Shown here: piece by piece, positions 1,687 to 21,141 of the stretch
Layout: each line of letters starts with the position of its first letter
Position numbering within the stretch: the first letter of the stretch is position 1
IMG/VR virus record: IMGVR_UViG_3300025164_001337
Span: 1-24,064 of that record
DNA length: 24,064 nt
From: a virus
Reading direction: 5' to 3' (one strand)
Notes under the pieces: model-generated
Databases searched by the model: none
Told to the model about the DNA's origin: nothing
Seen by the model: only the letters and a program-made list of their open reading frames with translations
Made by a program: the position numbers and the translations under genes

Positions 1687-4600
1687 ATGCCGAAGCCAAA
1701 ACCAGGTCAATCTCAAGACGACTTCGTGGCCATGTGTGTGCCGATGGTGCTTGATGAAGGTACGGCAAAAGACCAGGACCAAGCCGTGGCTATATGCAAT
1801 TCAATGTATGAAGAGCACGGCAAGCAGGCTCATGCGATGGGGCCAGGTGACGACGAATCTGAGTCCGACTGGATGGGGCGATGTGTATCGGAGATGGAGT
1901 CCGAAGGCAAAGACAAGGATGAGGCACAGTCTGCTTGCGAGACGATGTGGCAGCACCATCAGGAACGATCTGCCATGGTTCCAAGCCGGAAAGAAGAATT
2001 GCATGTCAACGAAGGAGAGAGCCAGTCTGAGTTTATCGATCGATGCGTCGCCAAACAGGACGGCATGGACGAAAGCGAAGCTCGGGCTGCTTGCCAGAAG
2101 ATATGGGAGCACCGCAACCAATCGGAGCAAAGGCCTGAAGCTTCAATGCACGAATCATTTGTCGCCAGGATAAAGGGCCGTCGCAATTCCATATCTCGTT
2201 TTGGATACGGTATCACGACGGCAGAGCCATACGTCCGTGCTTTGCTGCAAATGGAAGAGTCTGGTTGCTCGACGGGCCGCACTTGCTCCGTTGAATCACT
2301 TCTCAAGGAGGCTCAATCACGTCTCTGTTGTTCAACGCCCCATATGACCCTAGAGAGTATCGCGACAGCCAAAGACCTTTTTTTAGGGCGGCTGGACGGC
2401 ATCGGCGTCTCTGGCCTTGAGCCTCCCCCCAAGACGCTGATGCTGCTCCGCCACGTAGTCACGACTGACAAGCAGGACCGAGACGGCGACGTACTGGAGA
2501 CTGCTGGGTTCGAGTTGGACCCAGCGGCACCGCTGTTGTGGCAGCACCAGCCGTTTCTGCCGATCGGCAAGGTGCTGCGAGAGGTGGAGCACACGGCACA
2601 CAAGCTGACGGTGATCTCGGCACTACTGGACATGAACGAGTTGACACATGATGCGGCAGTGCTGTTTGAGGCAGACGCACTGCGGTTTAGCCATGGTTTC
2701 CGCGTCCTGGACTACGATGCCATGATGGACGAGAAAGGCGCGGAGACTGGCTCATTCCGGATCAAGAGAGCCGAGGGCCTTGAAGTCTCTGGCGTAAGCG
2801 TGCCGAGCAATACCGATGCTGTGGTGGAGTTGTGGAGCCGCGGCAAGTTCGAGTCAGACGTCGTGCGCTCGTACGCCAAGCATTACGCGAGCAAGCGGCC
2901 TGTGCAGGTGCGAGGTATCGACATCAGGACGAAGCATGTGCAGCCGTTCAACATGAAGAAGATACAGTCGGAGTTTCACCCTGAGCACCAGCGAGCATAT
3001 GCAGCTGTACCAGTGCACGACTGGGCATCGCAATGGTTGGAGTGCGAAGTCAAGGACTTGTACATTACCAGCACGTTCGCGCCATATTTCGCGATGGGAA
3101 ACTTCCTGTCTGCCATGAAGATAGCGATGGACTCGGCCAATCTTCGCGACACGAGGAACCTGGATGACTACGGCCACGATTGGCCGATCAAACGAGAAAC
3201 AGTGCAGTTGAACTCCAAGAAGTCTGACACCTTCATTGTGAATGGCTTTCAATTCTGGACTTGTGACAATCATAAGTGTTGCCTCGACTTGCAGAGATAT
3301 CACGACGGATTGGAAATCAGACGCTACGACGTGGACGACCGCGGCGTTAAGTTCTTTGAGGATTGCTGGGAGTGGGTGCGCGAGAACAATTACCTCAAGG
3401 GCGAGGCATTCCGACTGGGCGGCGGGTTTATTGAACGCAAAGGCCAGTCGCTAGACGAAATCTTTTTGGTTGACGGCAACAAGATCGCACTCAAACGCGC
3501 TGTCAAGTTGGCCAGCAGCGGAACCCAATTCGCCAGCCGAGGCATGATCTTTCTTGGGCCTCCAGGCACTGGCAAGACACTCTCGGCCAGGGCATTGCTT
3601 AACAACACGGATGCTACATTCATCTGGGTCAGTGCTAAGGATATGTATGGCGCCTCGAGCATCAGCATGGCGTTCAAGATTGCAGGTGAGCTCGCGCCGT
3701 CGATTATCTGCTTCGAGGACATTGATTCGTTCTTCAGTGATTATGCTTTCGATCTGCTGAAGACGGAGCTTGATGGACTCGACAAACGCACCGGTGTTTT
3801 GACGCTCCTCACTACGAACTATCCAGCCATGCTTCCCGAGACTTTGATCGACAGGCCAGGCAGGTTCCACGACGTGCTGCAATTCGACTTGCCGGACGAG
3901 CATTGCAGACGGGACATGTTCCGTGTGTGGTCTGCCTCTGCATCCAACAATCTCATTGAGGACATGGTGAAGCGGACAGCTGGGTTCAGCGGCGCCCACA
4001 TCAAGGACCTCTGTTCGTTCGCGGACGTGCTGAGGCGCGACGACGACATGCAGATCGATGAAGCGCTCGAGAAGGCCTACGGAAAAGTCTCTGAGCAGCG
4101 ACGTCTGGTGAGAGGCCTGTCGTCGCAGCAAAGAATGCGGCGAGACTATTCCAAAATGGACATCGCTGTGTCAGTATTGGAGAAGATTTGTCCTGCCTGT
4201 GCCAAGAGGGCCAGGGCCAAAGGGTTCAAGTCTGTCAAGCTCGACAAAGCTGTGAGTGCAGAGATGGTTGCCGGGCTATGTGACGCAGTTGGTAGCGATC
4301 CTGGATTTTTCAGCAACTGCATGGAATTCGACTTCGGCGAGTTCGAGGGGGAGATCGGGAGCAAAGAGGGCTTTTGCAATTGGCTGCATGAGACGTGCGG
4401 TTTCGGATACCCAGGGGAACACGAATCAGCCGTTGTGCGGATCAAAGCCGGCCGCGTGATATCGCAGAAGAACATGGACCTGCTGGGTGAAGTGCGAGCT
4501 GACTTGGAGGAGCTTTCTGGCATGGAAATGGCGAGAGCTGCCAAGGCTTTGTGTGAACGATGCGCGAGCAAAGTGCAGAGCGTAATTGAATCGGCAAAGC

Positions 4601-4866
4601 CGGCGGAAGAGCCGGAAGGCAAGAGCGTCTGTATGGGCCACGTCCACATGACAGTAGACGACATGGAGCCGCTCATTACCGATGTGATCAAGAAAGAGGT
4701 TGCTGCTAAGCAACCCGATCTAACCGATGTGGTCAACTTCGTCCTTGGTGCAAGTCAAGACGATCTGGCCCGCGTTAAACATACGTTGGACTTGGTGGTC
4801 GACCTCACGGCGTACAACGCCGCTGCGGAAGAGTACCGGGCCTTCGAAAGATCGATTGATTTGTAA
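1687..4866 (+). CDS. HK97-type prohead protease fused to AAA+ ATPase
   Basis: This is a 1059-residue multidomain protein. Residues about 8-145 hold three related repeats of the pattern [DE]F/W..RC...(D/E)EA..AC..MW.H. Residues about 245-400 match the prohead (U35/S78-like) protease fold: WQHQP with the likely catalytic His287, RFSHGF with the likely Ser335, and LEVSGVSVPSN near 365-375. Such proteases cut scaffold and capsid N-termini during head maturation. Residues about 505-800 form a AAA+ module with Walker A GPPGTGKT (624-631), Walker B IICFEDID (673-680), sensor-1 TTN (709-711) and DRPGRF (722-727) carrying an arginine-finger candidate. The last 250 residues include CPAC and CERC pairs and a helical end. 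Most phage prohead proteases are about 200-250 residues and lack an ATPase. The frame is continuous across every junction. The gene lies 18 bases upstream of the capsid gene, as expected for a head protease. Confidence 0.88.
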   Translation: MPKPKPGQSQDDFVAMCVPMVLDEGTAKDQDQAVAICNSMYEEHGKQAHAMGPGDDESESDWMGRCVSEMESEGKDKDEAQSACETMWQHHQERSAMVPSRKEELHVNEGESQSEFIDRCVAKQDGMDESEARAACQKIWEHRNQSEQRPEASMHESFVARIKGRRNSISRFGYGITTAEPYVRALLQMEESGCSTGRTCSVESLLKEAQSRLCCSTPHMTLESIATAKDLFLGRLDGIGVSGLEPPPKTLMLLRHVVTTDKQDRDGDVLETAGFELDPAAPLLWQHQPFLPIGKVLREVEHTAHKLTVISALLDMNELTHDAAVLFEADALRFSHGFRVLDYDAMMDEKGAETGSFRIKRAEGLEVSGVSVPSNTDAVVELWSRGKFESDVVRSYAKHYASKRPVQVRGIDIRTKHVQPFNMKKIQSEFHPEHQRAYAAVPVHDWASQWLECEVKDLYITSTFAPYFAMGNFLSAMKIAMDSANLRDTRNLDDYGHDWPIKRETVQLNSKKSDTFIVNGFQFWTCDNHKCCLDLQRYHDGLEIRRYDVDDRGVKFFEDCWEWVRENNYLKGEAFRLGGGFIERKGQSLDEIFLVDGNKIALKRAVKLASSGTQFASRGMIFLGPPGTGKTLSARALLNNTDATFIWVSAKDMYGASSISMAFKIAGELAPSIICFEDIDSFFSDYAFDLLKTELDGLDKRTGVLTLLTTNYPAMLPETLIDRPGRFHDVLQFDLPDEHCRRDMFRVWSASASNNLIEDMVKRTAGFSGAHIKDLCSFADVLRRDDDMQIDEALEKAYGKVSEQRRLVRGLSSQQRMRRDYSKMDIAVSVLEKICPACAKRARAKGFKSVKLDKAVSAEMVAGLCDAVGSDPGFFSNCMEFDFGEFEGEIGSKEGFCNWLHETCGFGYPGEHESAVVRIKAGRVISQKNMDLLGEVRADLEELSGMEMARAAKALCERCASKVQSVIESAKPAEEPEGKSVCMGHVHMTVDDMEPLITDVIKKEVAAKQPDLTDVVNFVLGASQDDLARVKHTLDLVVDLTAYNAAAEEYRAFERSIDL

Positions 4867-8326: not shown

Positions 8327-8691
8327 GCCTGTTGGAAAAACTTCCGCACACGGTAAGCCACCTGCGCAAGACATACGCGAGGGACCAGTACATCGGCAAC
8401 ACGACGGACACAGAGGAGTTGGCCACGAGCGTGCGTTGCTGGATCCAGACAGTCGGACAGTCGGAGGTGCAGCAGTATGAGAAGGCGGACCAGTTGATCA
8501 CGCACAAGGTGTACTACAAAACGCAGCCGACATTGCGTCCTGGAGACCTGATTCGCGTGACGGCCGGGCCAAGCTATGTCGGAAAAGACTTCAACTTTGA
8601 ATCACTTGCTGATGCATCTGCCGGTTTAGGGAAGTTATTCAAGGTGATGGTGAACGAAGAGAATAACGTACCAGTTACGTTTGCAGGATAA
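8323..8691 (+). CDS. Head closure / head-tail adaptor protein
   Basis: This is a 122-residue protein whose ATG overlaps the preceding stop (ATGA). Size and sequence style fit the small beta-barrel head-closure family: a charged N-terminal stretch, then strands around VRCWIQTVGQSEVQQYEK, THKVYYKTQPTLRPGDLIRV and LGKLFKVMVNEENNVPVTF. The phrase with 'LRPGDLIRV' is characteristic of the strand-turn region of such adaptors. The product would sit beneath the connector ring and close the head after packaging. The call depends strongly on position between connector and gp10-like genes. Confidence 0.68.
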   Translation: MSLLEKLPHTVSHLRKTYARDQYIGNTTDTEELATSVRCWIQTVGQSEVQQYEKADQLITHKVYYKTQPTLRPGDLIRVTAGPSYVGKDFNFESLADASAGLGKLFKVMVNEENNVPVTFAG

Positions 8692-9296
8692 TGGCCATGC
8701 CGCGTTTTACCGTCGGAGGAGCAGTTACCGAGGGGATAGTGAAGGCCGGAGGAGTGCACTCGGCCGAAGCGTTGGGCATCCATTTGGAGCCACGCCTGGT
8801 AGGAGGAGTGACACTCGGAGCAGAGCGAGGAATTTCTAAAGGCACATTCCGAAGCGTGAAATCGGCTGTGTCGCGGATGTCCAAGATACGCACTGGCAAA
8901 ACAGAAGCCACTGTCGTCTGGAACGGCGAGAAGCTCGAGAAAATCCTAGAACTTGAATTCTCTAAGCGGATCAAGCTTGCTACGCAGCTGGTCAAGGACC
9001 AAGTAAAGCTGAATCTCAACAGGTCGGTGTTGAAGTATAAGGGGCCTATAAGCAAGAAGATACGAGTATTGCCAGAAAGCCGCTCGAGACCAGGCGAGTT
9101 TCCGCGAAAAGAGACTGGCGATTTGCAGAAGAATATCTTCGGCGAGACGCCACGTCCCGACTGGGGTGTTGTAGGGACAACGTATGGTTATGGCTTGTTG
9201 CTTGAGACGCAGATGAATAGATCGTACCTACGTCGGACGCTGCTTGAGATGCAGCCGAAGATCAGGCAGATACTGGTGAAGGCAGTTTCACTTTGA
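8691..9296 (+). CDS. HK97 gp10-like neck/tail protein
   Basis: This 201-residue protein starts at ATG 8691, sharing one base with the previous stop (TAATG). Residues about 80-201 carry the signature of gp10-like neck proteins: a long basic amphipathic helix (KLEKILELEFSKRIKLATQL), then SRPGEFPRKETGDLQKNI near residues 130-147, then a GVVGTTYGYGLLLE strand. The N-terminal 75 residues are an extra glycine-rich region not typical of the family, containing hydrophobic GGV/GGA patches. The family acts in the neck or at the head-proximal end of the tail. The downstream tail-completion paralogues fit this placement. Confidence 0.72.
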   Translation: MAMPRFTVGGAVTEGIVKAGGVHSAEALGIHLEPRLVGGVTLGAERGISKGTFRSVKSAVSRMSKIRTGKTEATVVWNGEKLEKILELEFSKRIKLATQLVKDQVKLNLNRSVLKYKGPISKKIRVLPESRSRPGEFPRKETGDLQKNIFGETPRPDWGVVGTTYGYGLLLETQMNRSYLRRTLLEMQPKIRQILVKAVSL

Positions 9297-9297
9297 A

Positions 9298-9477
9298 ATG
9301 ATACACCCAGTTGTCAAAGTATGGCAACATAGTATGGAGCAGGCGAGCAAAGACGAGCAGGAGCAGTCTATGGCCAAAAACACATGTGTTCGGTGTGGCA
9401 GGCCGGTAATCGGCATAGCGAGTACGCAGAACATCTTGTGCCGCGCCTGTGCAAGGGACTTGTTCGGTGATGACTGA
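9298..9477 (+). CDS. Small zinc-ribbon protein
   Basis: This is an open frame of 59 residues filling the gap between two supported genes. The ATG at 9298 lies one base after the preceding stop. A second in-frame ATG at 9370 has a better ribosome binding site (AGGAG at 9359-9363, six bases away) and would give a 35-residue protein. Both versions contain CVRCG and CRAC, a CxxC...CxxC zinc-ribbon pattern 15 residues apart, and both end four bases into a TGATGG junction with the next gene. The packing and motif support a real gene, but its role is unknown. Which start is used cannot be settled from sequence. Confidence 0.6.
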   Translation: MIHPVVKVWQHSMEQASKDEQEQSMAKNTCVRCGRPVIGIASTQNILCRACARDLFGDD

Positions 9478-11681
9478 TGGCTACGGAGGCAGGTACGTGG
9501 CGACTGGACGAGGCGATCGCGGCACACTGGGAATCAAGAGGGCTCGACACCGACTTCCGCGCCGAATGGCTCGATCCGACTGCGATGGAGTACGAGCCGC
9601 TGCACGACGGGATGGCCAGACCGGAGCCGCCAGGTCCGTACTGCGTGTACGAGAAAGACGAGCCGGAGATACTGGCGAGGATGACAGGGATTGACAACAG
9701 CGGAGACGATAGGGAGTTGCAACGGTGGACGTTTCGATTCAAGGTGCACGCACAGGATACGAGCAGCGAGAGCGCGAAGAGCATTGCTCAACGGCTGGCG
9801 AAGAAGATCGCTGCCGCCTTCGACCCCCACAATGCTATCCAATTCGATGGCGTTGCGCATGTCGTGACGGAGCGGGGCCCGGATTGGCACGACCAGGAGG
9901 GGGAACAAGAGGCGTCGTGGACGCTGCAGTTCTCGATTCTGGTGGACGCGACAGTGGGAGCCTTCGGCGGCGAGGCCGAGTTCAGTTCGAGCAGCAGCTC
10001 GTCCGAAACGTTGACCAGCTCAATGTCGTCTTCCTCAAGCTGCTCGAGTGTTACGGAGCCTATTGCTGAGGAGGATGATGTGCTGGACTTCGGCGATATC
10101 GGTGGCGTGTACGACAGCCAGGCAGCAGCCGTAGCCAACCGGGCTGCGCTCATCGCCTATCTCACCACCCGTGTCAACGAGCCTGTCGAGCTGGGGTTCC
10201 GCGGACCTGTGGACTATCTCGACAGTAAACGTCAGCCGGCCAATGTCTACCTGGACCTGTCAGCTGGGGCGATCGCGATCACTGTGGGCGGGTCCGGAAA
10301 TATGTCGCACCTGACGTTCTTCGGTGGCTCGAAGATCTTCGGCGTGAATGCGGCCACGCCGGCAACGCCGATCTTCCAGATCACGCGCGGGTCGGGGCAG
10401 ATGCCTCGTGTTGTGATTCGAGGCCTGGCTTTCGAGTCCGATGGGTCCGTGATCAAGTTCGTCTACGGGGGATCGGGTGTCGTGCTGGAGGATGTCAAGA
10501 TCGATGACTTCACTGGGGCTGGGTCAATCGACCACGAGGACTGGACCGACGTGGAGGCCGAGACCTGCAGCTACGGCGTCTGGCTGGAGGATGCCGACGG
10601 GGCCCGGATCCAGAACCTGCAGATCAAGCAGGGTAGCGGCCACGGGATCGTGGCCACCAGGCTGCATGCCGGGGACGTCGATGCCCGGATTCAGTTGTGT
10701 GAGGGTGCCGGATTCAAACTGCAGCAGTTCAACGGCAATCGTGCTCACCTCTGGGCCGAATCCTGCAATGGCTACGGGCTTCTGGCCCGTGACTGCGGCG
10801 GCGACCGGCGGAGCGGAGGGGTCAAGGTCGCGAACGATGGGGCGCCGAATGACTGGAGGGCATGGTTTGAGGCCAACAACGGGCGAGGCACGAGCCACGG
10901 GGCCAGCGGCTACAGGTTCTCCCAGTTTAAACTGGCCAACTGCACGAGGATCAAGATGGCTGGCCACAGCGGCTGGCGGGACAATCAGGCGAGGCTCGAC
11001 AGAATATCTCGGTTGCGGAATGAGTTCGTCGAGGACTACTACCTAGACCCGAGCGTGGATCCTGACTTGTATTTGGTAGGTGCAGCCGGGGCCGGCGACG
11101 AATACCTAGTCAACGTCGCGAACATCACGCTGCCGCCGGCTGGGTTCGGCAACGCGAGTTGCACGAACTGGGACACGGTTTGGACAGACCCCGGCGACAG
11201 GCCGACAGCGACGATCGTTGGGAGCGGGACGGCGAGCGACCCGGAGCGGATTCGGATCACTTGGCCCGGCGGCTGCTTCGACGCCACGAGTGGGACAGAC
11301 ACAGCCTACTGGAGACCGTTCTGGGCCGTGGCCTTGAGCTCGCCTGGAAGCTATTTTTTCACTGCTCAAATCAAGGCAACGACATCCGTCGCAGGGACAT
11401 ATTGTGCATCTCGGGAAAGCTTATCGGTGGCGAATCGCCAGACGAACTCGCTTGGCAGCTTCTCGATTGCACCAGTGTCTGGGGCCATCACGGGGCTGAC
11501 GCTTTGGGACACGCACAGCCGTTGGCTCAGCGGTTCATTTACGGTGGACGATATCCGGTCTGACATCTCGCCACAATTTGCCGCTTGGGATAACGGCATG
11601 CAAGATCTGGACGGGGACGCCAGTCAAGACACCGAAATTATTGTGGATATTTACCAACTGAGGCTTTACAAGTTTGTGTGA
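9477..11681 (+). CDS. Tail-completion-like domain fused to beta-helix spike
   Basis: This is a 734-residue protein in four parts. Residues 1 to about 165 are paralogous to the whole next gene, sharing GLDT, ARPxPPGPYxVYEK, ESAKSI.xRLAK, AFDP and RGPDxH in order. By position and size this looks like a tail-completion or tail-terminator protein. Residues about 169-191 are a short Ser-rich linker. Residues about 205-505 have repeated short strands with Gly/Asn turns, as in right-handed beta-helices of phage spikes and pectate-lyase-like enzymes. Residues about 545-734 form a separate, probably beta-sandwich, C-terminal domain. A spike fused to a neck or tail-completion component is unusual and suggests a neck-borne depolymerase or adhesin. 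The DNA of the beta-helix part is visibly richer in G and C than its flanks. Catalytic residues cannot be assigned. Confidence 0.72.
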   Translation: MATEAGTWRLDEAIAAHWESRGLDTDFRAEWLDPTAMEYEPLHDGMARPEPPGPYCVYEKDEPEILARMTGIDNSGDDRELQRWTFRFKVHAQDTSSESAKSIAQRLAKKIAAAFDPHNAIQFDGVAHVVTERGPDWHDQEGEQEASWTLQFSILVDATVGAFGGEAEFSSSSSSSETLTSSMSSSSSCSSVTEPIAEEDDVLDFGDIGGVYDSQAAAVANRAALIAYLTTRVNEPVELGFRGPVDYLDSKRQPANVYLDLSAGAIAITVGGSGNMSHLTFFGGSKIFGVNAATPATPIFQITRGSGQMPRVVIRGLAFESDGSVIKFVYGGSGVVLEDVKIDDFTGAGSIDHEDWTDVEAETCSYGVWLEDADGARIQNLQIKQGSGHGIVATRLHAGDVDARIQLCEGAGFKLQQFNGNRAHLWAESCNGYGLLARDCGGDRRSGGVKVANDGAPNDWRAWFEANNGRGTSHGASGYRFSQFKLANCTRIKMAGHSGWRDNQARLDRISRLRNEFVEDYYLDPSVDPDLYLVGAAGAGDEYLVNVANITLPPAGFGNASCTNWDTVWTDPGDRPTATIVGSGTASDPERIRITWPGGCFDATSGTDTAYWRPFWAVALSSPGSYFFTAQIKATTSVAGTYCASRESLSVANRQTNSLGSFSIAPVSGAITGLTLWDTHSRWLSGSFTVDDIRSDISPQFAAWDNGMQDLDGDASQDTEIIVDIYQLRLYKFV

Positions 11682-12193: not shown

Positions 12194-15100
12194 ATGGCCA
12201 ACCGTTCGGCGGAGAGCGATATCCAGCTTCTGGTCAAGTCGACCATGATGCTCACTGTCGACGATGGATGGCGGACGAGCGTAAAGGTGGGCGGCTGGGT
12301 GTTGAAGCAGCATTTGCTGACTGGAGTGGAATCCGATCAGGCGAATCGAGGTTGGGGGTACGAGGGTACGATAGCGAGCGGGAATGTGGTTGACTTAGAC
12401 CTCTACGACATGGCTGGACTGAACACCGGCGGCGGGGCTGGCCGTGATGGGCTCGGCCAGGCTCTGGCCATGGAGGAGATCGTATCTCTGGGGATCGCGA
12501 AGATTTCCGGTAGCGGGCAATTGGAGGTCATGCCTACACAGCCAGCCAACTATCTGACATGGGTACCGCCACTCACGGTCGCGGATGGAAATGCCCTGAA
12601 GACTGACGGCGTGGCGCTCATGCATCAGTCGCACACAGATGCGTTTGATGTCGAGGATGGCTCGAGTCACGTTTTGCGTCTGGGTGCCAACGGCGGCGAC
12701 GTGACATACCGTGTCTACCTAATCGGCCGCCATGACGACCAGTTGTCCTCCAGCAGCACGCTGTCGACATCTTCACTCAGTTCCATGACGACATCTGTCT
12801 CTGGTAGCTCTGTCAGCAGCTCGAGCTCTCTCTCCGTGTCGTCCTCGAGTTCGTCCCTCTCAGTTTCATCATCGTGCTCTTCTCTGTCTATGTCTTCATC
12901 CTCGAGCTCGCTATCCGTTAGTTCCTCGAGCAGCAGTCTATCCGTGTCGTCAAGTTCGTCGAGCTCGCAGTCTATCTCGTCTGTGACGATAACTTCATCC
13001 TCGCAAAGCGTAAGCTCATCCAGCTGGTCCAGTTTCAGTTCGAGCCTGAATTCATCCTGCAGCACGATTGCCAGGACCAGTTCTTCAACATCGAAGAGTT
13101 GTTCGAGCCAAACGATGTCCACATCGAGCTCGATGGAATCCGGTGTTACGTCCTCGTCCAGCAGCACGGCTGGGAGAACTACGTCTAGTACAGTCGGCCA
13201 GTCGACAACGTCTGTCTCGAGCAGCGTGGGGCGGACTACCTCGAGCTCCAGCACGGTAGCCAGCGTGACATCATCGACTGTCGCCAGGACGACGTCGTCG
13301 AGCTCAAGCTCCGAAAGCTCATCCTCAAGTACCGTTGCGAGATCGACATCAAGTACCGTGGCGCGATCTACTTCCAGCACAATCGGCGAAACTACGTCTA
13401 GCACGGCTGCTTCACTGACCTCCTCCAGTTCGTCCACCTCTTCGACAATCGTTGAAACAACGTCCACGAGCTCGTCAATCACAGGATCCATTGAGAATCT
13501 GCAGGCTACCGTGTGGGCCTACAACCAGATCAGCCTCTCGTGGGACGCAACCGGGGTGAACTGGTACGACGTGGAGGTGCAGGACGGTGGCGGGCGGTGG
13601 AACCACGTGCGGAGCGTGTACGACAACGGGGTGGATATGGCCGGCTTCGATGCGGCCACGACATACAGTTTTCGCGTGCGAGGAGTTGAGAATACTTGGC
13701 CGGACTGGAGCTACACCGACTACTCGGCTGTGGTGACGCCTACGACCAGTGCATATCAGGCGGCTCCCACGTTCACCGTCACGGACGACACATCTTGGAA
13801 CACGGCCTATGTCAACGCAGAGGCTGGCGACGTTATAGAGATTCTGCCGGGAACAGTCCTGACAGAGAAGACGGCGCCGCCATGGCGAGTTGGATCCGGT
13901 AAGTTCGTCACAATCCGATCCGCTGCCATGGCATTACTGCCAGGTTTTGACCAGCGGATTGGACCAAGTGATATCGGCAACATGCCGATGTTTCGCACAC
14001 GACAGCAAGTTGCCGGCGCAATGCATGTTGGCCCAGGAAGTCACCATCTCTCTTTTGAGGGTATTCGTTTTGAAGCCGATCAACCGACGCAATACCGCGT
14101 GAATTACATCGTTGTGTTTAACGAAGCTTTCCAAGATGTTAACAACGATCCGTATGACATCGAGTTTCATCGGTGCTGGGTCGAGAGCCCGAGGCCAGGT
14201 ACAGTTTTCGGTGCGACGACATTTACGGAATGCGATTCAGGATTTTACAGTTATGGTGCAGATCGCGTTGTGATCAAAGACACTTATTGCAAGGAGCTGT
14301 CTGCAGAAACGCAAGATGCGCCATCGATTGGTGGGACGCGCGGTAAGGAATGGGCAGTAAACAACTGCCATCTTGAGGGGAGCATGCCAGTGTTCTGGGG
14401 CGGTGCGAGCCATCCAGAAACTGACGTGTTGCCAGACTTGCACAGCTATCGCCGCAATCACATCGTCAGGCCTACATATTGGATTCCGACGGAGGCCGAC
14501 TACGACGGGCGATCCCGCAACCGCAAAAACATGTTTGAAATCAAATATGGCCAGCGGTTCCTGATTGAGGACAACTATTTCCAACGTGGTTATTGCACAG
14601 ATTCTTATGTCGTGATTCTGACGCCACGTGCTGACATTTCCTGGTCTGGCATTTACGACGTGCAGATTCGATACAATCACTTCGACACGATTGACGGAGG
14701 ATTCAGGATTGCAGGAAGCGATGGCTTGTACTCGCCACCGAATGATGGCTTTGCAACAAAGCGACTAACAGTATCGCACAATTTGATCGAGGATTTTGGT
14801 AAACTTTCGCAGCTCGGCAAGCGAGAATACGAGTTTAATACATCCTCGCCAGAATGGGATCGTTTAGAGGACATCTGTTTCCGCCGCAACAGTTGGGTAA
14901 CTGACGAGTTGTCCGGTCTGACGCCTTGGTTTTCACCTACCAATGCTGTTGCGCTTTGGGAAGATGGCTTCGGGCTTGTCGGCCAGTTCATTTACGAAAA
15001 CAACATCACATGTGGACTACTCGGCAGAGACGGTGGTGCGAATGACATAACTGTATTGTCATATGTCATAGGAGATAATCGCTGGACCTTTGAGAATAAC

Positions 15101-15334
15101 GTAATGGTCCTAGCAGATTCGAGCCTCAACAATTCGACAAAATTCCCAAACAACTATAATCTTGCAACCGGTCCTGGCGACTCTGGCTACAACATGGATG
15201 GTGTTGGGTTTGTTGACTGGAGAAACGGCAATTGGCGACTTCATGAAACAAGTGCGCATTACAGCGCACAAGGCTGCGACAACTCAGTTTACGATCGCAC
15301 GGCCCACTGTATTGATGGAGACTGGAGCGCGTAA
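12194..15334 (+). CDS. Modular fibre: repeated domain, poly-Ser, FN3, beta-helix
   Basis: This is a 1046-residue protein. Residues 1 to about 183 are one of three copies of a domain (see 15335 and 17394), recognised by RSAESD at the start, then D(I/L)DLYD, MPT.PANY.TWVP.LTVA.GNALK and a final G.V.Y..YLIGRHDD. Residues about 184-430 are poly-Ser/Thr broken by STVARTTSS-like elements. Residues about 433-518 resemble a fibronectin type III domain (WAYNQISLSWD, YSFRVRGVE). Residues about 525-1046 form a long right-handed beta-helix-like region with repeated N/D-rich strand-turns, like pectate-lyase or chondroitinase-type spikes. The likely role is receptor binding or polysaccharide cleavage at the virion surface. 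No secretion signal is present. Start ATG 12194 lies three bases after the previous stop. The beta-helix DNA looks more AT-rich than the FN3 segment, which is consistent with mosaic origin. Confidence 0.75.
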   Translation: MANRSAESDIQLLVKSTMMLTVDDGWRTSVKVGGWVLKQHLLTGVESDQANRGWGYEGTIASGNVVDLDLYDMAGLNTGGGAGRDGLGQALAMEEIVSLGIAKISGSGQLEVMPTQPANYLTWVPPLTVADGNALKTDGVALMHQSHTDAFDVEDGSSHVLRLGANGGDVTYRVYLIGRHDDQLSSSSTLSTSSLSSMTTSVSGSSVSSSSSLSVSSSSSSLSVSSSCSSLSMSSSSSSLSVSSSSSSLSVSSSSSSSQSISSVTITSSSQSVSSSSWSSFSSSLNSSCSTIARTSSSTSKSCSSQTMSTSSSMESGVTSSSSSTAGRTTSSTVGQSTTSVSSSVGRTTSSSSTVASVTSSTVARTTSSSSSSESSSSSTVARSTSSTVARSTSSTIGETTSSTAASLTSSSSSTSSTIVETTSTSSSITGSIENLQATVWAYNQISLSWDATGVNWYDVEVQDGGGRWNHVRSVYDNGVDMAGFDAATTYSFRVRGVENTWPDWSYTDYSAVVTPTTSAYQAAPTFTVTDDTSWNTAYVNAEAGDVIEILPGTVLTEKTAPPWRVGSGKFVTIRSAAMALLPGFDQRIGPSDIGNMPMFRTRQQVAGAMHVGPGSHHLSFEGIRFEADQPTQYRVNYIVVFNEAFQDVNNDPYDIEFHRCWVESPRPGTVFGATTFTECDSGFYSYGADRVVIKDTYCKELSAETQDAPSIGGTRGKEWAVNNCHLEGSMPVFWGGASHPETDVLPDLHSYRRNHIVRPTYWIPTEADYDGRSRNRKNMFEIKYGQRFLIEDNYFQRGYCTDSYVVILTPRADISWSGIYDVQIRYNHFDTIDGGFRIAGSDGLYSPPNDGFATKRLTVSHNLIEDFGKLSQLGKREYEFNTSSPEWDRLEDICFRRNSWVTDELSGLTPWFSPTNAVALWEDGFGLVGQFIYENNITCGLLGRDGGANDITVLSYVIGDNRWTFENNVMVLADSSLNNSTKFPNNYNLATGPGDSGYNMDGVGFVDWRNGNWRLHETSAHYSAQGCDNSVYDRTAHCIDGDWSA
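12746..13480 (+). repeat. Poly-Ser/Thr coding tract
   Basis: About 245 codons are mainly Ser and Thr with mixed codons, joining the N-terminal repeated domain to the FN3 domain of the fibre protein. The second half has recurrent STVARSTSS, STVGQSTTS and STIGETTSS elements spaced roughly every 10-25 residues. Confidence 0.85.
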
Positions 15335-17380
15335 ATGTCGAATGTGATCAAAACAATCGGTTCTGGTGGAACATTTGCTAGTGTTCAGGCGTGGGCTGAT
15401 GACATAAATACAAATGCGAATGGCTTCTATATCTCTGGTGATATCGCTATCGGCCAGGTATTAAATGACTTGTCGACAGCCAGCGGAAGCCATGTATCAT
15501 TTGCTGCAGCCAATGGCACGAATCCGATCTCCAAGGCGATACTGGAGCCATCATCTGGAAATGCAAATAATGGCATTGTTGCAGGCGGCATAGTTCTAAC
15601 CCAGACTAACGGAGATAACTATGGGATATACCTTGCTGCTGCCGTAGATTATCACGTAGAAATTCGAGATCTGGAGATTTACCGCAATCAGTCGTCTGGC
15701 GGGACAAACGACTTTAGCCTGATACACAATGCGTGCACCAATTCCATTGAGTTAATAGTCAAGCGATGCATTGTCCATACTAATCAATTTGGTGCAGCAA
15801 CAGGAACGCCCATTGGAATCAAGGGTATTTCGGCTGGGGCTACAACACGTGCAGTGCGGTGCCTGGTCTTCGACATCGGAAATCCAACAACCGGATTTGG
15901 GATTGGAATTGCCGATGCGGTGACGATTCACAACTGCTGTGTGTATAATTGCGCTGGCAACGGCATCGGCAGTGACAATATCTTCCACGATGTTCGCAAC
16001 TGCATATCGATGGATAACGGCTCCACGGACTACGCTGGTGCGTGGGCCGCCACAAAAGATCGGAACATGTCATCGGATGCCACAGCGCCGGGCACGACTG
16101 TCTACATTAATAAAGTCAGTACAGCGATCTGGACAGCTCCTGGTAGTGACGATTTTACACTCCAGCTCGGAACTGACGCCATCGGAACCGGCCAGGACTT
16201 GGGCAGCGGCTACGAACAAAACATCGACATCAAACATGACTTGATTGCCGGAGAGGTATGGGACCTTGGGGCATTCCAGTCTGGCGAGATGAGCACGTCC
16301 AGCACGGTGGCTCGCTCTAGTTCCAGCACAGTGGCACGCTCGACATCCAGTACCGTGGCTCGTAGCTCGTCCTCGCAAACTGAGTCTGAGTCGTCTCTCA
16401 GTACCGAAAGCAGCTCGACAACATCGTTCTCATCTTCCAGCACGGCGGCGATGACGACGTCTTCCTCATCCTCGAGCAGCAGTTCCACGAGCTCGTCCTC
16501 GAGTTCAAGCACCGAGGCAAGAACAACATCCTCGTCCTCCTCTACTTCTTCGTCCTCTTCGTCGACTTCTTCGTCTTCGTCATCATCCTCTTCTACCTCT
16601 TCCTCAAGTTCTAGCAGCAGCTCCACGAGCTCGTCCTCGTCGACGGCAGCGCAGATGACTTCGTCGTCGTCTTCCTCGGCCAGTAGCTCGACATCTTCGT
16701 CGACTTCATCCTCATCAACTTCTTCATCCTCCTCGCTTTCGACTTCGTCTTCATCCTCTCTATCAACTTCGTCGTCTTCCTCTTCGACGTCATCTTCGTC
16801 TTGCAGCGGGACAGATCAGGCCATTGGCACTCGGACCTTATCAGCCTCGCTCAAGTTATTTATGTCATCGACGATAACAAACGTGATTGACGATGGGTCA
16901 TCCGCAAGTGTTGCGGCCATGAAGGGCCGGTTGCTGGATCTGGTACTGACGACAGGGATCGCCGACAACAAGGCAACTCGGGCTTGGCGATTGAAAGACG
17001 GATCAATCGGCTCTGGGTCCACCAAGGACATTGACTTGTACGATCTGGTTGGCGAGGACATCGGTGCTGGTGACGGGCGAGATGCACTCGGGCAGCTTAT
17101 GGTCCAGAAACAAATAGTAGCCTTCGTTCTCGAGAAGACTGGCGGCGCGGGTTTGCTCGAACTGATGCCTACCAACCCTGCCAACTACTGCACGTGGGTT
17201 CCAGTCCTTACGGTCGCAGCTGGGAATGCATTGAAGACTGGAGGTCTTGCGTTGTTGGTTCAGCCGGCTGCGTCCGCTCTTCGCGTGACAGATGCTTCGA
17301 GCCACAAGATGCGCTTGGGTGCCAGCGGTGGCGCAGTGACATACGATCTGTGGCTGGTTTCTCGGCATTACGGAACATAA
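15335..17380 (+). CDS. Modular fibre: beta-helix, poly-Ser, repeated domain
   Basis: This is a 681-residue protein whose ATG directly abuts the previous stop. Residues 1 to about 315 look like a beta-helix, with an N-terminal GTFASVQAWADDI segment and repeated short strands such as EIRDLEIYRN and HNCCVYNCAGNGI. Residues about 318-490 are poly-Ser/Thr with STVARSSSS and STAAMTTSS elements. Residues about 495-681 are a second copy of the domain found at the N-terminus of the preceding protein, including DIDLYD, MPTNPANY.TWVPVLTVA and GNALKTGG. The order is therefore reversed relative to that protein. The role is probably a virion surface adhesin or spike. The beta-helix part is visibly more AT-rich than the serine-rich part. 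The enzyme activity, if any, is unknown. Confidence 0.75.
   Translation: MSNVIKTIGSGGTFASVQAWADDINTNANGFYISGDIAIGQVLNDLSTASGSHVSFAAANGTNPISKAILEPSSGNANNGIVAGGIVLTQTNGDNYGIYLAAAVDYHVEIRDLEIYRNQSSGGTNDFSLIHNACTNSIELIVKRCIVHTNQFGAATGTPIGIKGISAGATTRAVRCLVFDIGNPTTGFGIGIADAVTIHNCCVYNCAGNGIGSDNIFHDVRNCISMDNGSTDYAGAWAATKDRNMSSDATAPGTTVYINKVSTAIWTAPGSDDFTLQLGTDAIGTGQDLGSGYEQNIDIKHDLIAGEVWDLGAFQSGEMSTSSTVARSSSSTVARSTSSTVARSSSSQTESESSLSTESSSTTSFSSSSTAAMTTSSSSSSSSSTSSSSSSSTEARTTSSSSSTSSSSSSTSSSSSSSSSTSSSSSSSSSTSSSSSTAAQMTSSSSSSASSSTSSSTSSSSTSSSSSLSTSSSSSLSTSSSSSSTSSSSCSGTDQAIGTRTLSASLKLFMSSTITNVIDDGSSASVAAMKGRLLDLVLTTGIADNKATRAWRLKDGSIGSGSTKDIDLYDLVGEDIGAGDGRDALGQLMVQKQIVAFVLEKTGGAGLLELMPTNPANYCTWVPVLTVAAGNALKTGGLALLVQPAASALRVTDASSHKMRLGASGGAVTYDLWLVSRHYGT
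16291..16803 (+). repeat. Poly-Ser/Thr coding tract
   Basis: About 170 codons are mainly Ser and Thr, connecting the beta-helix to the C-terminal repeated domain. STVARSS elements cluster at the start and STAAMTT, STEARTT and STAAQMT elements follow. Codons are mixed, as in the other tracts. Confidence 0.85.
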
Positions 17381-17393
17381 CAGGAGCAATTAT

Positions 17394-18161
17394 ATGTCGA
17401 CACGCAGTGCCGAGAGCGAAGTCAAGCTGACCTTCTCGGCAACGATCAAAAATACGCTGGACGACGGTCAAGTAGCTCAAGTCCTGCTGAGCGACACAGT
17501 GATCTCAGGCAATCTGGCCAGTGGCGTGGATGCCAATCAGGCGAACCGTGCCTGGGCACGCAAGAGCCATACCTTGGCCTCTGGCAATACAGAGGACATT
17601 GACCTCTATGACTTTGCCGACATCGATATCGGAGCTGGTCTTGGAAACGATGGATTGGGGCTCCCGATGGCACTCGAAGAGGTAGTTACGTTTTGCATCA
17701 AGCAAACATCTGGTGCAGGACGACTCGAATTGATGCCTACCAATCCGTCGAACTATGCGACGTGGGTGCCGCAGTTGACAGTCTCGCTCGGGTCTGCACT
17801 CAAGGCCGGTGGTCTGCTGCTGCTGCATCAGCCAGACGAGGATGCATTCGACATCGAGGATGGCTCATCGCACATGATGCGTGTCGGAGCTAACGGCGGA
17901 GATATCGTTTACGACCTCTATCTGGTTGGGCGACACGATGACGAGGCCTCGAGTTCCTCGAGTTCGTCCACTTCCTCTTCGTCCTCTTCCTCTACATCGA
18001 GTTGCACGACCAGTACGCTTTCGTCGCAGTCCACCTCCTCGAGTTCGTCTTCGTCGAGTTCGACGTCCTCGAGTTCCTCATCATCGTCCTCGTGCACATC
18101 GTCGTCTTCGACAGCGGCCAGGACGACCTCTTCGAGTAGTTCCTGTTCGACCACAACGTAA
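17394..18161 (+). CDS. Repeated-domain protein with C-terminal poly-Ser
   Basis: This is a 255-residue protein. Residues 1 to about 183 are the third copy of the domain also present in the two preceding genes, beginning RSAESE and containing NLASGVDANQANRAW, DIDLYD, MPTNPSNYATWVPQLTV and GDIVYDLYLVGRHDD. The rest is a poly-Ser/Thr tail with a few Cys and one STAARTTSS element, ending the protein without any further domain. It has a good ribosome binding site (AGGAG at 17382-17386, seven bases before ATG 17394). The gene looks like the minimal form of the module. It may be an independent virion decoration protein, or a remnant of a longer fibre whose C-terminal part was lost. It lies 18 bases upstream of the tail tube gene. 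Confidence 0.75.
   Translation: MSTRSAESEVKLTFSATIKNTLDDGQVAQVLLSDTVISGNLASGVDANQANRAWARKSHTLASGNTEDIDLYDFADIDIGAGLGNDGLGLPMALEEVVTFCIKQTSGAGRLELMPTNPSNYATWVPQLTVSLGSALKAGGLLLLHQPDEDAFDIEDGSSHMMRVGANGGDIVYDLYLVGRHDDEASSSSSSSTSSSSSSSTSSCTTSTLSSQSTSSSSSSSSSTSSSSSSSSSCTSSSSTAARTTSSSSSCSTTT
17947..18158 (+). repeat. Poly-Ser/Thr coding tract
   Basis: About 70 codons are mainly Ser, Thr and a few Cys, forming the C-terminal tail of the repeated-domain protein. TCN and AGY codons are mixed. Confidence 0.8.
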
Positions 18162-18179: not shown

Positions 18180-18713
18180 ATGAGTGGAGCAACAGTTCAG
18201 TCCGGGTCGGGCGGGAAAGTCCTGGCCCATAATGCGGATGAAGGCACCTGGTATTTGATCGCCAGAATCAGCCAATGGAATGCCAGCATCAGCGTACAGG
18301 AGGCGGCTTGGGGCGATTCTGACTCTGGAGGAAAAACTAATCGAGTTGCTGGTCGAGAAGACATCACTGGTACGATCACCGGCAAGCCAGACAAGGAACA
18401 TCCCCAGTACAACGATCTGCTGTGGGATGACACGAGCGAGCCAAACAACAAGAACATCGTTGCCATGATACTCTGGGAGGATGGCAATGAGACAACGCCG
18501 GAAGATTTCTTCTACTTGCCACGGGCGCTGATTAGTGTGTTTAACATCGGGATCGATAATGATACCAAGTTGCCCGTAGATTTCAGCGCCACATTCGGGG
18601 CCGATGGTACGTGGTTCAAGCCTCGCGAGACTGGCGTGGGTCAACTTACCGGCACGGCTGCAAGGGCGGCTCTCACTGCTGGAAACTTGCGTGATATCGA
18701 TCCTGTGCTGTAA
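18180..18713 (+). CDS. Major tail tube protein (probable)
   Basis: This 177-residue protein starts at ATG 18180 with AAGGAG close upstream. Its features fit a siphovirus tail tube protein: small size, a Gly-rich N-terminus, an early strand ending in ISQWNASISV, a loop with DSGGKTNRVAGREDITGTITG, and a C-terminal half of alternating beta strands. It lacks transmembrane or catalytic motifs. Position directly before the frameshifted tail chaperone and the tape measure gene is the normal place for the tube gene, and this is the main support. The product would polymerise into the tail tube around the tape measure protein. An alternative is a minor tail protein of the same fold. Confidence 0.7.
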   Translation: MSGATVQSGSGGKVLAHNADEGTWYLIARISQWNASISVQEAAWGDSDSGGKTNRVAGREDITGTITGKPDKEHPQYNDLLWDDTSEPNNKNIVAMILWEDGNETTPEDFFYLPRALISVFNIGIDNDTKLPVDFSATFGADGTWFKPRETGVGQLTGTAARAALTAGNLRDIDPVL

Positions 18714-19413: not shown

Positions 19414-19601
19414 TCTTCCGCGAATTGTGCGAGGCCTACCCCGGACTAAATCCCATGATACTTGAGCAAATGTCACAGAACCAGATTGTTTGGCTGCTAT
19501 GCGATAAAGAACGACTCAAGAACGGCGGCAAAATCACGCGCGGCACACCAAGCCAATTGCGAAAAATGGGATTGCTGCCAAGACGAAGATGGGGAGTGTG
19601 A
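19410..19601 (+). CDS. Tail assembly chaperone, frameshift extension (gpT-like)
   Basis: The reading frame in -1 register relative to the upstream chaperone gene continues from the slippery site to a stop at 19601. The 63-residue part after 19410 begins IFRELCEAYPGLNP and contains a conserved-looking hydrophobic Gln/Glu helix with NQIVWLLCDK. A TTG at 19410 could also start translation independently, but the slippery sequence and hairpin make the fusion product the more likely form. The extension plausibly contacts the tail tube, while the N-terminal part binds the tape measure protein, as in the phage lambda model. It ends four bases before the tape measure start. Confidence 0.72.
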   Translation: MIFRELCEAYPGLNPMILEQMSQNQIVWLLCDKERLKNGGKITRGTPSQLRKMGLLPRRRWGV

Positions 19602-19605
19602 TAAG

Positions 19606-21141
19606 ATGGCATTCGAACTTGCGAAGGCATTCGTGACCATCGGCACAGATGATACAAAATTACGTCAAGGATTGTCTCAAGTTAAGACTAGATTTACATC
19701 TGCCATGTCTGATCTTACCAAGGTCGCCGCTGGTTTTGGTATTGGTATAGGATTGCAACAGGCAGTTGGGTTCATGAGACAACTATCGGCAGCAGCCGAG
19801 GCATCTGCCGACGCCGAGATGCGATTAAACGCAGTTTTGAAAGCCACTGGTGAGGCTGCTGGCTTTAGTGCCAAAGAGATCGGTTCATTCATTCAAGAGC
19901 TGTCGAAAGCTACTGCCACGGACGATGAGATGATTTCTGACGCAATTTCCAAACTGCTTACATTCAAAGGCGTCACTGGTGATGTTTTCAAGAAAGCAAC
20001 AGAGCTAGCCATTGATCTGGCTGCAACAGGATTCGGGTCTGTCGAAAGTGCAGCGACAATGCTCGGCAAAGCCTTGGAGAATCCATTAACAGGAATGATG
20101 GCTTTGACTCGAGTTGGCGTGACATTGACAGACACTCAAAAGCAACAAATAAAGAATTATACAGAGACAAATCAACTCCTCAAGGCTCAACAAATTATTC
20201 TTGATGCGATCATGGGTCAAGTAGGTGGTGTCGGTCGCGAAACGGCTACGGCCCTCAAGAGATCTAGAGTTGAGTTAGATAATATAAAGGAAACACTGGG
20301 AGTAAAGGTTATTCCTCTCAGTACAAAATGGAATGAGTTTCTCGTATCCGTTTTGACCAACGTCGAGAAAGTCGTGAATGCGTATGACCGTATCGTTCAG
20401 AACACTGATAAATGGATAGAACACAATATTAGACAGAACGAGCTGATGCGAGATACAGTGCACATGGCGGAACGAATAGCACCGAGTGGTGCAGGTAATC
20501 TTTTGGCTTTGACACAAGAGGGAATTATTTTGCAAGGAATTAGGGCTACGGAACGAGCCGATATGGACGAAACTGTGCGTAAGCATCAATTAGCGATTTT
20601 GCGAAGACAATTAGAGGAATTGAAGTTTCCAGAGAAGCTCGGCGGTGCACCGAAGGAAGTACCTTTTCCTGCGCGAGGATTTTCAACTCTCGCAGAATCC
20701 CGTGCAATATGGGAATGGGAGCGTAGAATAAGAGAAGATGAACAGAGGAAAGCGGAAAAAGATGCGCACGATGCCAGGCAACGTCTTTTACAATTGACAA
20801 ATGCCCGATTCAATCTGCTTGAACTTCGTGGAATTGGTTCTCTCTTTGGCGCAATATCTGGCTTTCTTGGCGGAGCATTAACGCCCAATGTTCGAGAGCG
20901 AGAGACTATGCCCAACATTGGCACAACCAGTTTCCAAGGTATCAACGATGCTTTTCAGCAGGCCATGAACGATCGGCAGAATCCAGTGCATAAGACAAAC
21001 GAGATACTGAATACCGGAATCAAACGGCCGCTCGAGGAGATGGCGAAGGCCGCCAAGACATCGGCACGAGATTTTGGTGCAGCTGCGGCTGGTGCGATCA
21101 AACAGGGACTGACAGGATTATTTGGCGTCGCTAACGAGTAG
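19606..21141 (+). CDS. Tape measure protein
   Basis: This is a 511-residue protein. The frame is open further upstream, but ATG 19606 is preferred: it has GGGGAG at 19591-19596 and begins after the chaperone extension stop. It shows the typical tape measure composition: an N-terminal segment with VTIGTDDTKLRQGLSQV, Ala-rich helices (AAEASADAEMRLNAVLKATG, KATELAIDLAATGFGSVESA), and two glycine-rich hydrophobic stretches, one near residues 43-57 and one near 411-425. The protein sets tail length and helps eject DNA through the host envelope. At about 1.5 angstroms per helical residue, 511 residues would span roughly 75 nm, a short siphovirus tail. No peptidase or lysozyme domain is visible. The gene is visibly AT-richer than its neighbours. 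Confidence 0.85.
   Translation: MAFELAKAFVTIGTDDTKLRQGLSQVKTRFTSAMSDLTKVAAGFGIGIGLQQAVGFMRQLSAAAEASADAEMRLNAVLKATGEAAGFSAKEIGSFIQELSKATATDDEMISDAISKLLTFKGVTGDVFKKATELAIDLAATGFGSVESAATMLGKALENPLTGMMALTRVGVTLTDTQKQQIKNYTETNQLLKAQQIILDAIMGQVGGVGRETATALKRSRVELDNIKETLGVKVIPLSTKWNEFLVSVLTNVEKVVNAYDRIVQNTDKWIEHNIRQNELMRDTVHMAERIAPSGAGNLLALTQEGIILQGIRATERADMDETVRKHQLAILRRQLEELKFPEKLGGAPKEVPFPARGFSTLAESRAIWEWERRIREDEQRKAEKDAHDARQRLLQLTNARFNLLELRGIGSLFGAISGFLGGALTPNVRERETMPNIGTTSFQGINDAFQQAMNDRQNPVHKTNEILNTGIKRPLEEMAKAAKTSARDFGAAAAGAIKQGLTGLFGVANE

Follow-up and report, generated by a model that had tools for sequence, protein, structure and literature searches.

Duplicated tail-module genes as putative anchors of poly-serine-tethered fibre-like proteins in an uncultured phage group

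A domain present three times between the tail terminator and the putative tube

The DNA analyzed here, hereafter the window, is the 24,064-base IMG/VR virus record IMGVR_UViG_3300025164_001337, which is probably a fragment and whose source phage is known from metagenome sequence alone. Its gene order is siphophage-like, with a protease/ATPase region, a major head protein, head-tail adaptors, a neck protein and tail terminator(s), followed by three adjacent open reading frames (ORFs) for proteins A (12194–15334, 1046 amino acids [aa]), B (15335–17380, 681 aa) and C (17394–18161, 255 aa), and then by a putative tube protein, a putative chaperone (by position only) and a tape measure protein. A domain of about 183 residues is present three times, at the N-terminus of A, at the C-terminus of B (extending to the stop codon) and at the N-terminus of C. 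We consider it fairly likely that genes of this tail module were duplicated in tandem, with one copy becoming the docking end of an adhesin tethered by poly-Ser. The parts of the three proteins are as follows:

12194..12742, + strand: domain copy A (PHROG 22694 family), 52% identity to copy C (E 6e-57)
12743..13490, + strand: Ser-rich tract of protein A, 249 aa, 54% Ser
13493..13780, + strand: FN3-like domain of protein A, PF00041 E 3.9e-5, 24.2 bits against a gathering score of 25
13781..15331, + strand: C-terminal part of protein A, beta-helix suspected only, without known family
15335..16291, + strand: N-terminal part of protein B, unrelated to A's part, no significant family match
16292..16828, + strand: Ser-rich tract of protein B, 179 aa, 64% Ser, holding the change-over relative to contigs L045–L047 at about 16420
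16829..17377, + strand: domain copy B, C-terminal, 51% identity to copy C (E 4e-50)
17394..17948, + strand: domain copy C, by the domain tree the ortholog of the gene that relatives have in single copy; PHROG 22694; AlphaFold2 (AF2) predicted local distance difference test score (pLDDT) 83
17949..18158, + strand: C-terminal Ser-rich tail of protein C, 70 aa, 69% Ser and 20% Thr, without a partner domain

The ORFs and the domain copies lie where the original prediction had placed them, and the copies are 47–52% identical: BLAST gave 52% for C and A, 51% for C and B, and 47% for A and B (E 1e-42 to 1e-59), with the three-copy alignment nearly gap-free over the full length. Pairwise alignments scored 58–77 standard deviations (SD) above 500 shuffles, and still 34–45 SD above them after deletion of the motifs by which the domain had been recognized, so that similarity outside these motifs is far above chance level. 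The dN/dS ratios of about 0.05 for domain B (compared with its ortholog in the related contig L047) and about 0.07 for domain C, obtained with saturated dS, point to strong purifying selection on both.

A poly-Ser tract adjoins each copy, as had been claimed. All six Ser codons are used in the tracts of A and B and five of the six in that of C; given this mixed usage, the tracts are kept as protein and are not DNA microsatellites. For A, the proposed order of domain, Ser tract and FN3 holds as far as the Ser tract, while the FN3 match is near-significant. Neither Pfam, NCBIfam and PHROGs nor PDB sequences yielded a significant match for the C-terminal part of A, and the N-terminal part of B shows no BLASTP similarity to the large part of A.

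The profile of PHROG 22694, a family without known function, matches 16 of 24 members of the domain family over the whole domain (best E 1.6e-10; copy C, E 4.2e-8 over residues 5–179 of 185). This likeness is full-length; the fusion to poly-Ser and the adhesin partners are described here from IMG/VR relatives. Structural prediction, which the earlier note had proposed as a check, yielded for copy C a model that is all-beta and jelly-roll-like, and of good confidence in just the best of five runs (mean pLDDT 53–83, model details not being used), and the domain is predicted to be a jelly-roll-like beta sandwich. Its matches in the PDB were generic jelly rolls (plant virus coat proteins and Ena pili; best Z 7.9), and its closest matches in BFVD were uncharacterised phage proteins (best E 1.2e-5). 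No solved structure was significantly related by sequence, no match was found in GenBank phages with five different members as queries, and a first scan of bacterial and archaeal genomes returned nothing. Two candidates were rejected: a weak stretch from a second scan in an Oscillospiraceae metagenome-assembled genome (L051), in which no open frame matched the domain, terminator or tube profiles, and a paralogous relationship of the domain to the tail tube (0.2% probability by hhalign of the two alignments).

A tail terminator module with the same layout

The protein encoded at 9477–11681, overlooked in the earlier note, is laid out like A and B with a different duplicated module, the tail terminator:

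9477..9971, + strand: duplicated tail-terminator module TT1, N-terminus of the fibre protein, 165 residues
9981..10052, + strand: short Ser-rich linker of the TT1 fibre, 67% Ser, within a mosaic patch relative to L047 and missing in the ortholog of contig L006
10053..11678, + strand: C-terminal remainder of the TT1 fibre, a probable right-handed beta-helix
11678..12190, + strand: stand-alone tail terminator TT2, by position and homology to the single terminator of relatives; PHROG 1232 match weak

TT1 is 45% identical to TT2 (E 1e-40). Its AF2 model (pLDDT 86.7) resembles the terminator of a gene transfer agent (GTA; Z 14.2), T5 p142 (Z 13.4) and lambda gpU (Z 11.2), and terminator, neck and cap structures account for nearly all of the 50 entries listed, so that TT1 is predicted to have the tail terminator fold. 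By sequence profile, TT1 falls below the curated cut-off (PF23961, E 0.0025, 18.0 bits against 27), and the PHROG terminator families match the terminator alignment weakly (best E 2.8e-4). Matches of PF13229 to the fibre part were below the gathering score of 25.9 both in the window (E 0.028, 14.5 bits) and in the L006 ortholog (E 0.0048, 17.0 bits). L006 keeps the fusion, without the Ser tract, and has no proteins A and B between the terminator and C. Since the TT1 and TT2 genes of the window and L006 form two ortholog pairs, the duplication is older than the split of the two phages. For none of the large parts (of A, of B and of the TT1 fibre) was a relative found in GenBank phages.

Related contigs, independent fusions and mosaic junctions

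IMG/VR scans detected relatives of the domain in roughly two dozen distinct contigs, all from uncultured phages. Lone copies, which the original prediction had suggested searching for, proved usual: most relatives have a single 'domain + poly-Ser' gene, and in every contig containing both flanks it lies between the tail terminator and the putative tube gene. Extras between these flanks are A and B in the window group and a terminator-fusion gene in L020. All domain copies adjoin a Ser-rich tract, with 63–96% Ser in the next stretch or, in B, before the domain.

Further copies and fusions in the relatives are worth noting: 1) In L023, L025 and L026, a second domain copy after the tape measure gene is followed by a Ser tract of ~460 aa and then by Gly_rich_2 (E 2e-11). 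2) In L020, Gly_rich_2 (E 7e-17) is fused ahead of a second terminator, a paralog by hhalign (96.6%, E 6e-10) with a loop that carries a Ser insert. 3) L007 and L015 have a second domain + Ser gene downstream. The Gly_rich_2 (PF21722) matches, with 62.6 bits in L020 and 44.7 bits in L023, exceed the gathering score of 24.3. The domain tree groups C in one subclade with A, B and the L007 copies and places the second copy of L023 in the other clade, which indicates that extra domain copies arose at least twice. Fusion to an adhesin-like part occurred with both presumed anchors and in both orientations.

Landmarks of the tail module in the window are:

8691..9296, + strand: neck/tail-completion protein, upstream landmark, PHROG 5 E 2e-6
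18180..18713, + strand: putative major tail (tube) protein, downstream landmark, by position before the putative chaperone and the tape measure
19462..21141, + strand: tape measure protein, PHROG 27166 E 1.2e-27

The putative tube protein gave E 0.029 with the tail tube family NF047353, and members of its family weakly match PHROG 1407, 3884 and 10528 (major tail protein). Over 21 contigs, mean pairwise identity is 38% for the terminator, 48% for the domain and 56% for the tube, and in 198 of 210 pairs the domain shows higher conservation than the terminator; conservation between those of terminator and tube is as expected of a virion component. This conservation, together with the fixed place beside the terminator, argues against an alternative in which the domain acts as a host-binding adhesin of its own, a lectin-like jelly roll copied for avidity, with poly-Ser as a mere spacer and with the anchors elsewhere in each protein. 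Jelly-roll folds are indeed common among carbohydrate-binding proteins, Foldseek lists many unrelated sandwich proteins including one carbohydrate-binding module, and the C-terminal location of the domain in B is a usual place for an adhesin. However, protein C consists of the domain and a Ser tail and has no other folded part to anchor it, which also favors the domain as anchor over the domain as adhesin, and in L023 the domain is N-terminal with the recognized Gly-rich adhesin at the far end. We regard a lectin-like role as unlikely.

Several other Ser-rich proteins were observed. L014:3659-4345, L010:1447-2157 and others encode a conserved second family, unrelated to the domain, of ~105 aa plus a Ser tail; its genes precede those for the protease and head proteins in many relatives. 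Positions 119–1252 of the window, upstream of the head genes, encode a protein in which a small domain at the N-terminus is combined with a Ser tract of 262 aa. At the equivalent place, many relatives have a Ser-tailed family ('KNVTFYLGP...LSMEDLSSSS'), whose profile does not match the window protein. L007:11-2149 is an ORF with two related non-Ser domains (ending TYFCVYVG and SFFCVYVG) and Ser tracts between, a modular poly-Ser protein. In L010:8001-9230, the single-copy domain gene contains an extra domain of ~100 aa between two Ser tracts, indicating that even the basic gene can take up a module.

In another alternative, the function would lie in the Ser/Thr-rich tail: the domain would coat the neck or tail with mucin-like strings, which may be glycosylated, and so alter its surface, adhesin fusions being secondary. 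Every domain copy adjoins a Ser tract, most with nothing further, Ser is maintained with mixed codons, and the second, unrelated Ser-tailed family and the 262-aa tract of the window would fit a coat of this kind. Since it leaves unexplained the terminator duplication and the fusion to beta-helix or Gly-rich parts, once without any Ser linker (L006), we consider it improbable.

The original prediction attributed the arrangement of the copies to duplication and permutation. Duplication and fusion are supported by the domain tree, the tandem arrangement, the unrelated partner parts of A and B, and the independent second fusions in other phages, whereas 'permutation' is better replaced by tandem duplication, true circular permutation not being needed. 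Domain A starts three bases after the end of the terminator ORF, the place of the single-copy gene in relatives, and domain B ends 16 bases before domain C. These positions fit a tandem duplication of C with fibre sequence inserted between the copies: the first copy may have kept its own start (A), and the upstream tandem copy may have been captured at the end of the preceding fibre ORF (B).

Compared with L047, the window is near-identical from 1678 to about 16,419 and then 20–35% divergent up to the tape measure. From 19453 onward (tape measure and downstream genes) the two cannot be aligned, and the head side is near-identical, a strongly mosaic relationship. Because the Ser tract of B contains the change-over, domains B and C go with the tail side of the mosaic. 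A second mismatch patch (9959–10293) covers the Ser tract and the start of the helix part of the TT1 fibre. With about 9% of the compared region consisting of Ser tracts, a single crossover in one of them is suggestive but not significant, and the junction might also stem from misassembly. In favor of A, B or junctions of the window being partly metagenome assembly artefacts across low-complexity Ser tracts, the sharp passage from near-identity to about 20–35% divergence from L045–L047 occurs inside the tract of B, where assemblers may misjoin. Yet the window is not alone in having all three proteins intact: L046 and L047 do as well, and L045 has intact A and B (the contig end cuts C). The window and these three contigs are different IMG records. 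The three contigs are also consistent among themselves, and B of the window and their B ortholog share one layout, with 86% identity in the domain. An artefact is therefore very improbable.

Possible docking of fibres and comparison with known systems

Docking of fibres on the virion is the most likely role of the domain, in view of its fixed place between terminator and tube, its structural-type conservation and the use of the terminator in the same way. The domain would be a small virion protein of the neck/tail module, with protein C, a jelly-roll-like domain followed by a presumably disordered Ser/Thr-rich tail, as the basic form. In the lineage of the window, the domain gene was duplicated in tandem, the extra copies presumably becoming docking ends of the two large fibre-like proteins A and B, and the tail terminator took the same route to give the TT1 fibre and the stand-alone TT2. 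We infer that these proteins are present in the virion, where the paralogous copies would share the ring or site of the parent protein, or lie next to it, and have their binding partner there. A long flexible poly-Ser tract would then allow an adhesin of the beta-helix, FN3 or Gly-rich kind to extend, from either end of the anchor, to host surface polymers and possibly bind a receptor there.

Several points weigh against docking by the domain: i) displayed on poly-Ser, it could equally be the ligand-binding end; ii) the large parts of A and B match no recognized receptor-binding family, so that the receptor-binding partner parts proposed earlier are suggested by a family in relatives (Gly_rich_2, PF21722) and not by A and B themselves; iii) the fold match is generic, its Z score lying below the level considered telling; and iv) domain A is near-unchanged between the window and L047 while the tube proteins differ strongly, which gives no indication of a tight domain-tube interface.

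In lactococcal phages, neck passage structures (NPS), tail protein extensions (TpeX) and 'evolved' Dit proteins are structural proteins bearing host-binding modules (PMC6669499, PMC4493119), and the proteins described here may work like NPS, TpeX and evolved Dit, with no kinship implied. The NPS of 936 and TP901-1 phages have a conserved N-terminal part of ~130–180 residues, a beta-sandwich with a proposed collar role (PMC6669499, PMC4493119), and like our proteins they continue into variable C-terminal parts, carbohydrate-binding or beta-helix modules. They differ in having a BppU-like base and a coiled-coil stalk, in place of the PHROG 22694 domain and poly-Ser, in the location of the TP901-1 gene (orf51) at the end of the structural module and not between terminator and tube, and in lacking a tail-terminator fusion. 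We do not file our proteins as NPS-type members, because the trimeric coiled-coil stalk is absent, the linker here being 54–69% Ser, and BppU is not among the matches listed for the domain fold, the best of which reached only the Z score given above. TpeX and evolved Dit are likewise core tail proteins with an added host-binding module, the structural protein serving as anchor (PMC6669499, PMC10688798), but there the core protein itself is extended (TpeX being a frameshift product), whereas here the gene is duplicated and one copy stays free.

TT1 resembles the tail terminators lambda gpU, T5 p142 and the GTA terminator in predicted fold and genome position. Described terminators bear no fibre, the larger ones having sheath-binding or duplicated terminator domains (PMC11784142), and the neck fibres of T4 and XM1 use other proteins (PMC10491603). 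Our literature search turned up no paper describing poly-Ser phage proteins or fusions of terminator and fibre, which does not prove that there is none. Elsewhere in the window, a single 1059-aa ORF (1687–4866) matches PHROG 80 (head maturation protease) and then the ATPase-like PHROG 30773 and 10401, an unusual protease-ATPase fusion; searches of the window for RNA families and tRNAs found none of either.

We tentatively suggest, at somewhat less than even chances, that this uncultured phage group has a general system for hanging fibres, in which the tail terminator and the PHROG 22694 jelly roll, mutually unrelated, were repeatedly duplicated and fused at either end, mostly via poly-Ser, to interchangeable adhesins; the terminator ring would then bear fibres, and the Ser tracts would also serve as recombination joints. 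PHROG 22694, so far without known function, thereby gains a testable role, and the tail terminator, normally a plain capping ring, appears to have found a second use, in at least two different layouts, anchoring an adhesin-like protein. If this is true, accessory fibres can evolve through tandem duplication of a core virion gene combined with a flexible low-complexity linker, which would account for the gain of host-binding arms by such phages in the absence of a dedicated baseplate and for the exchange of these arms by recombination in the linkers.

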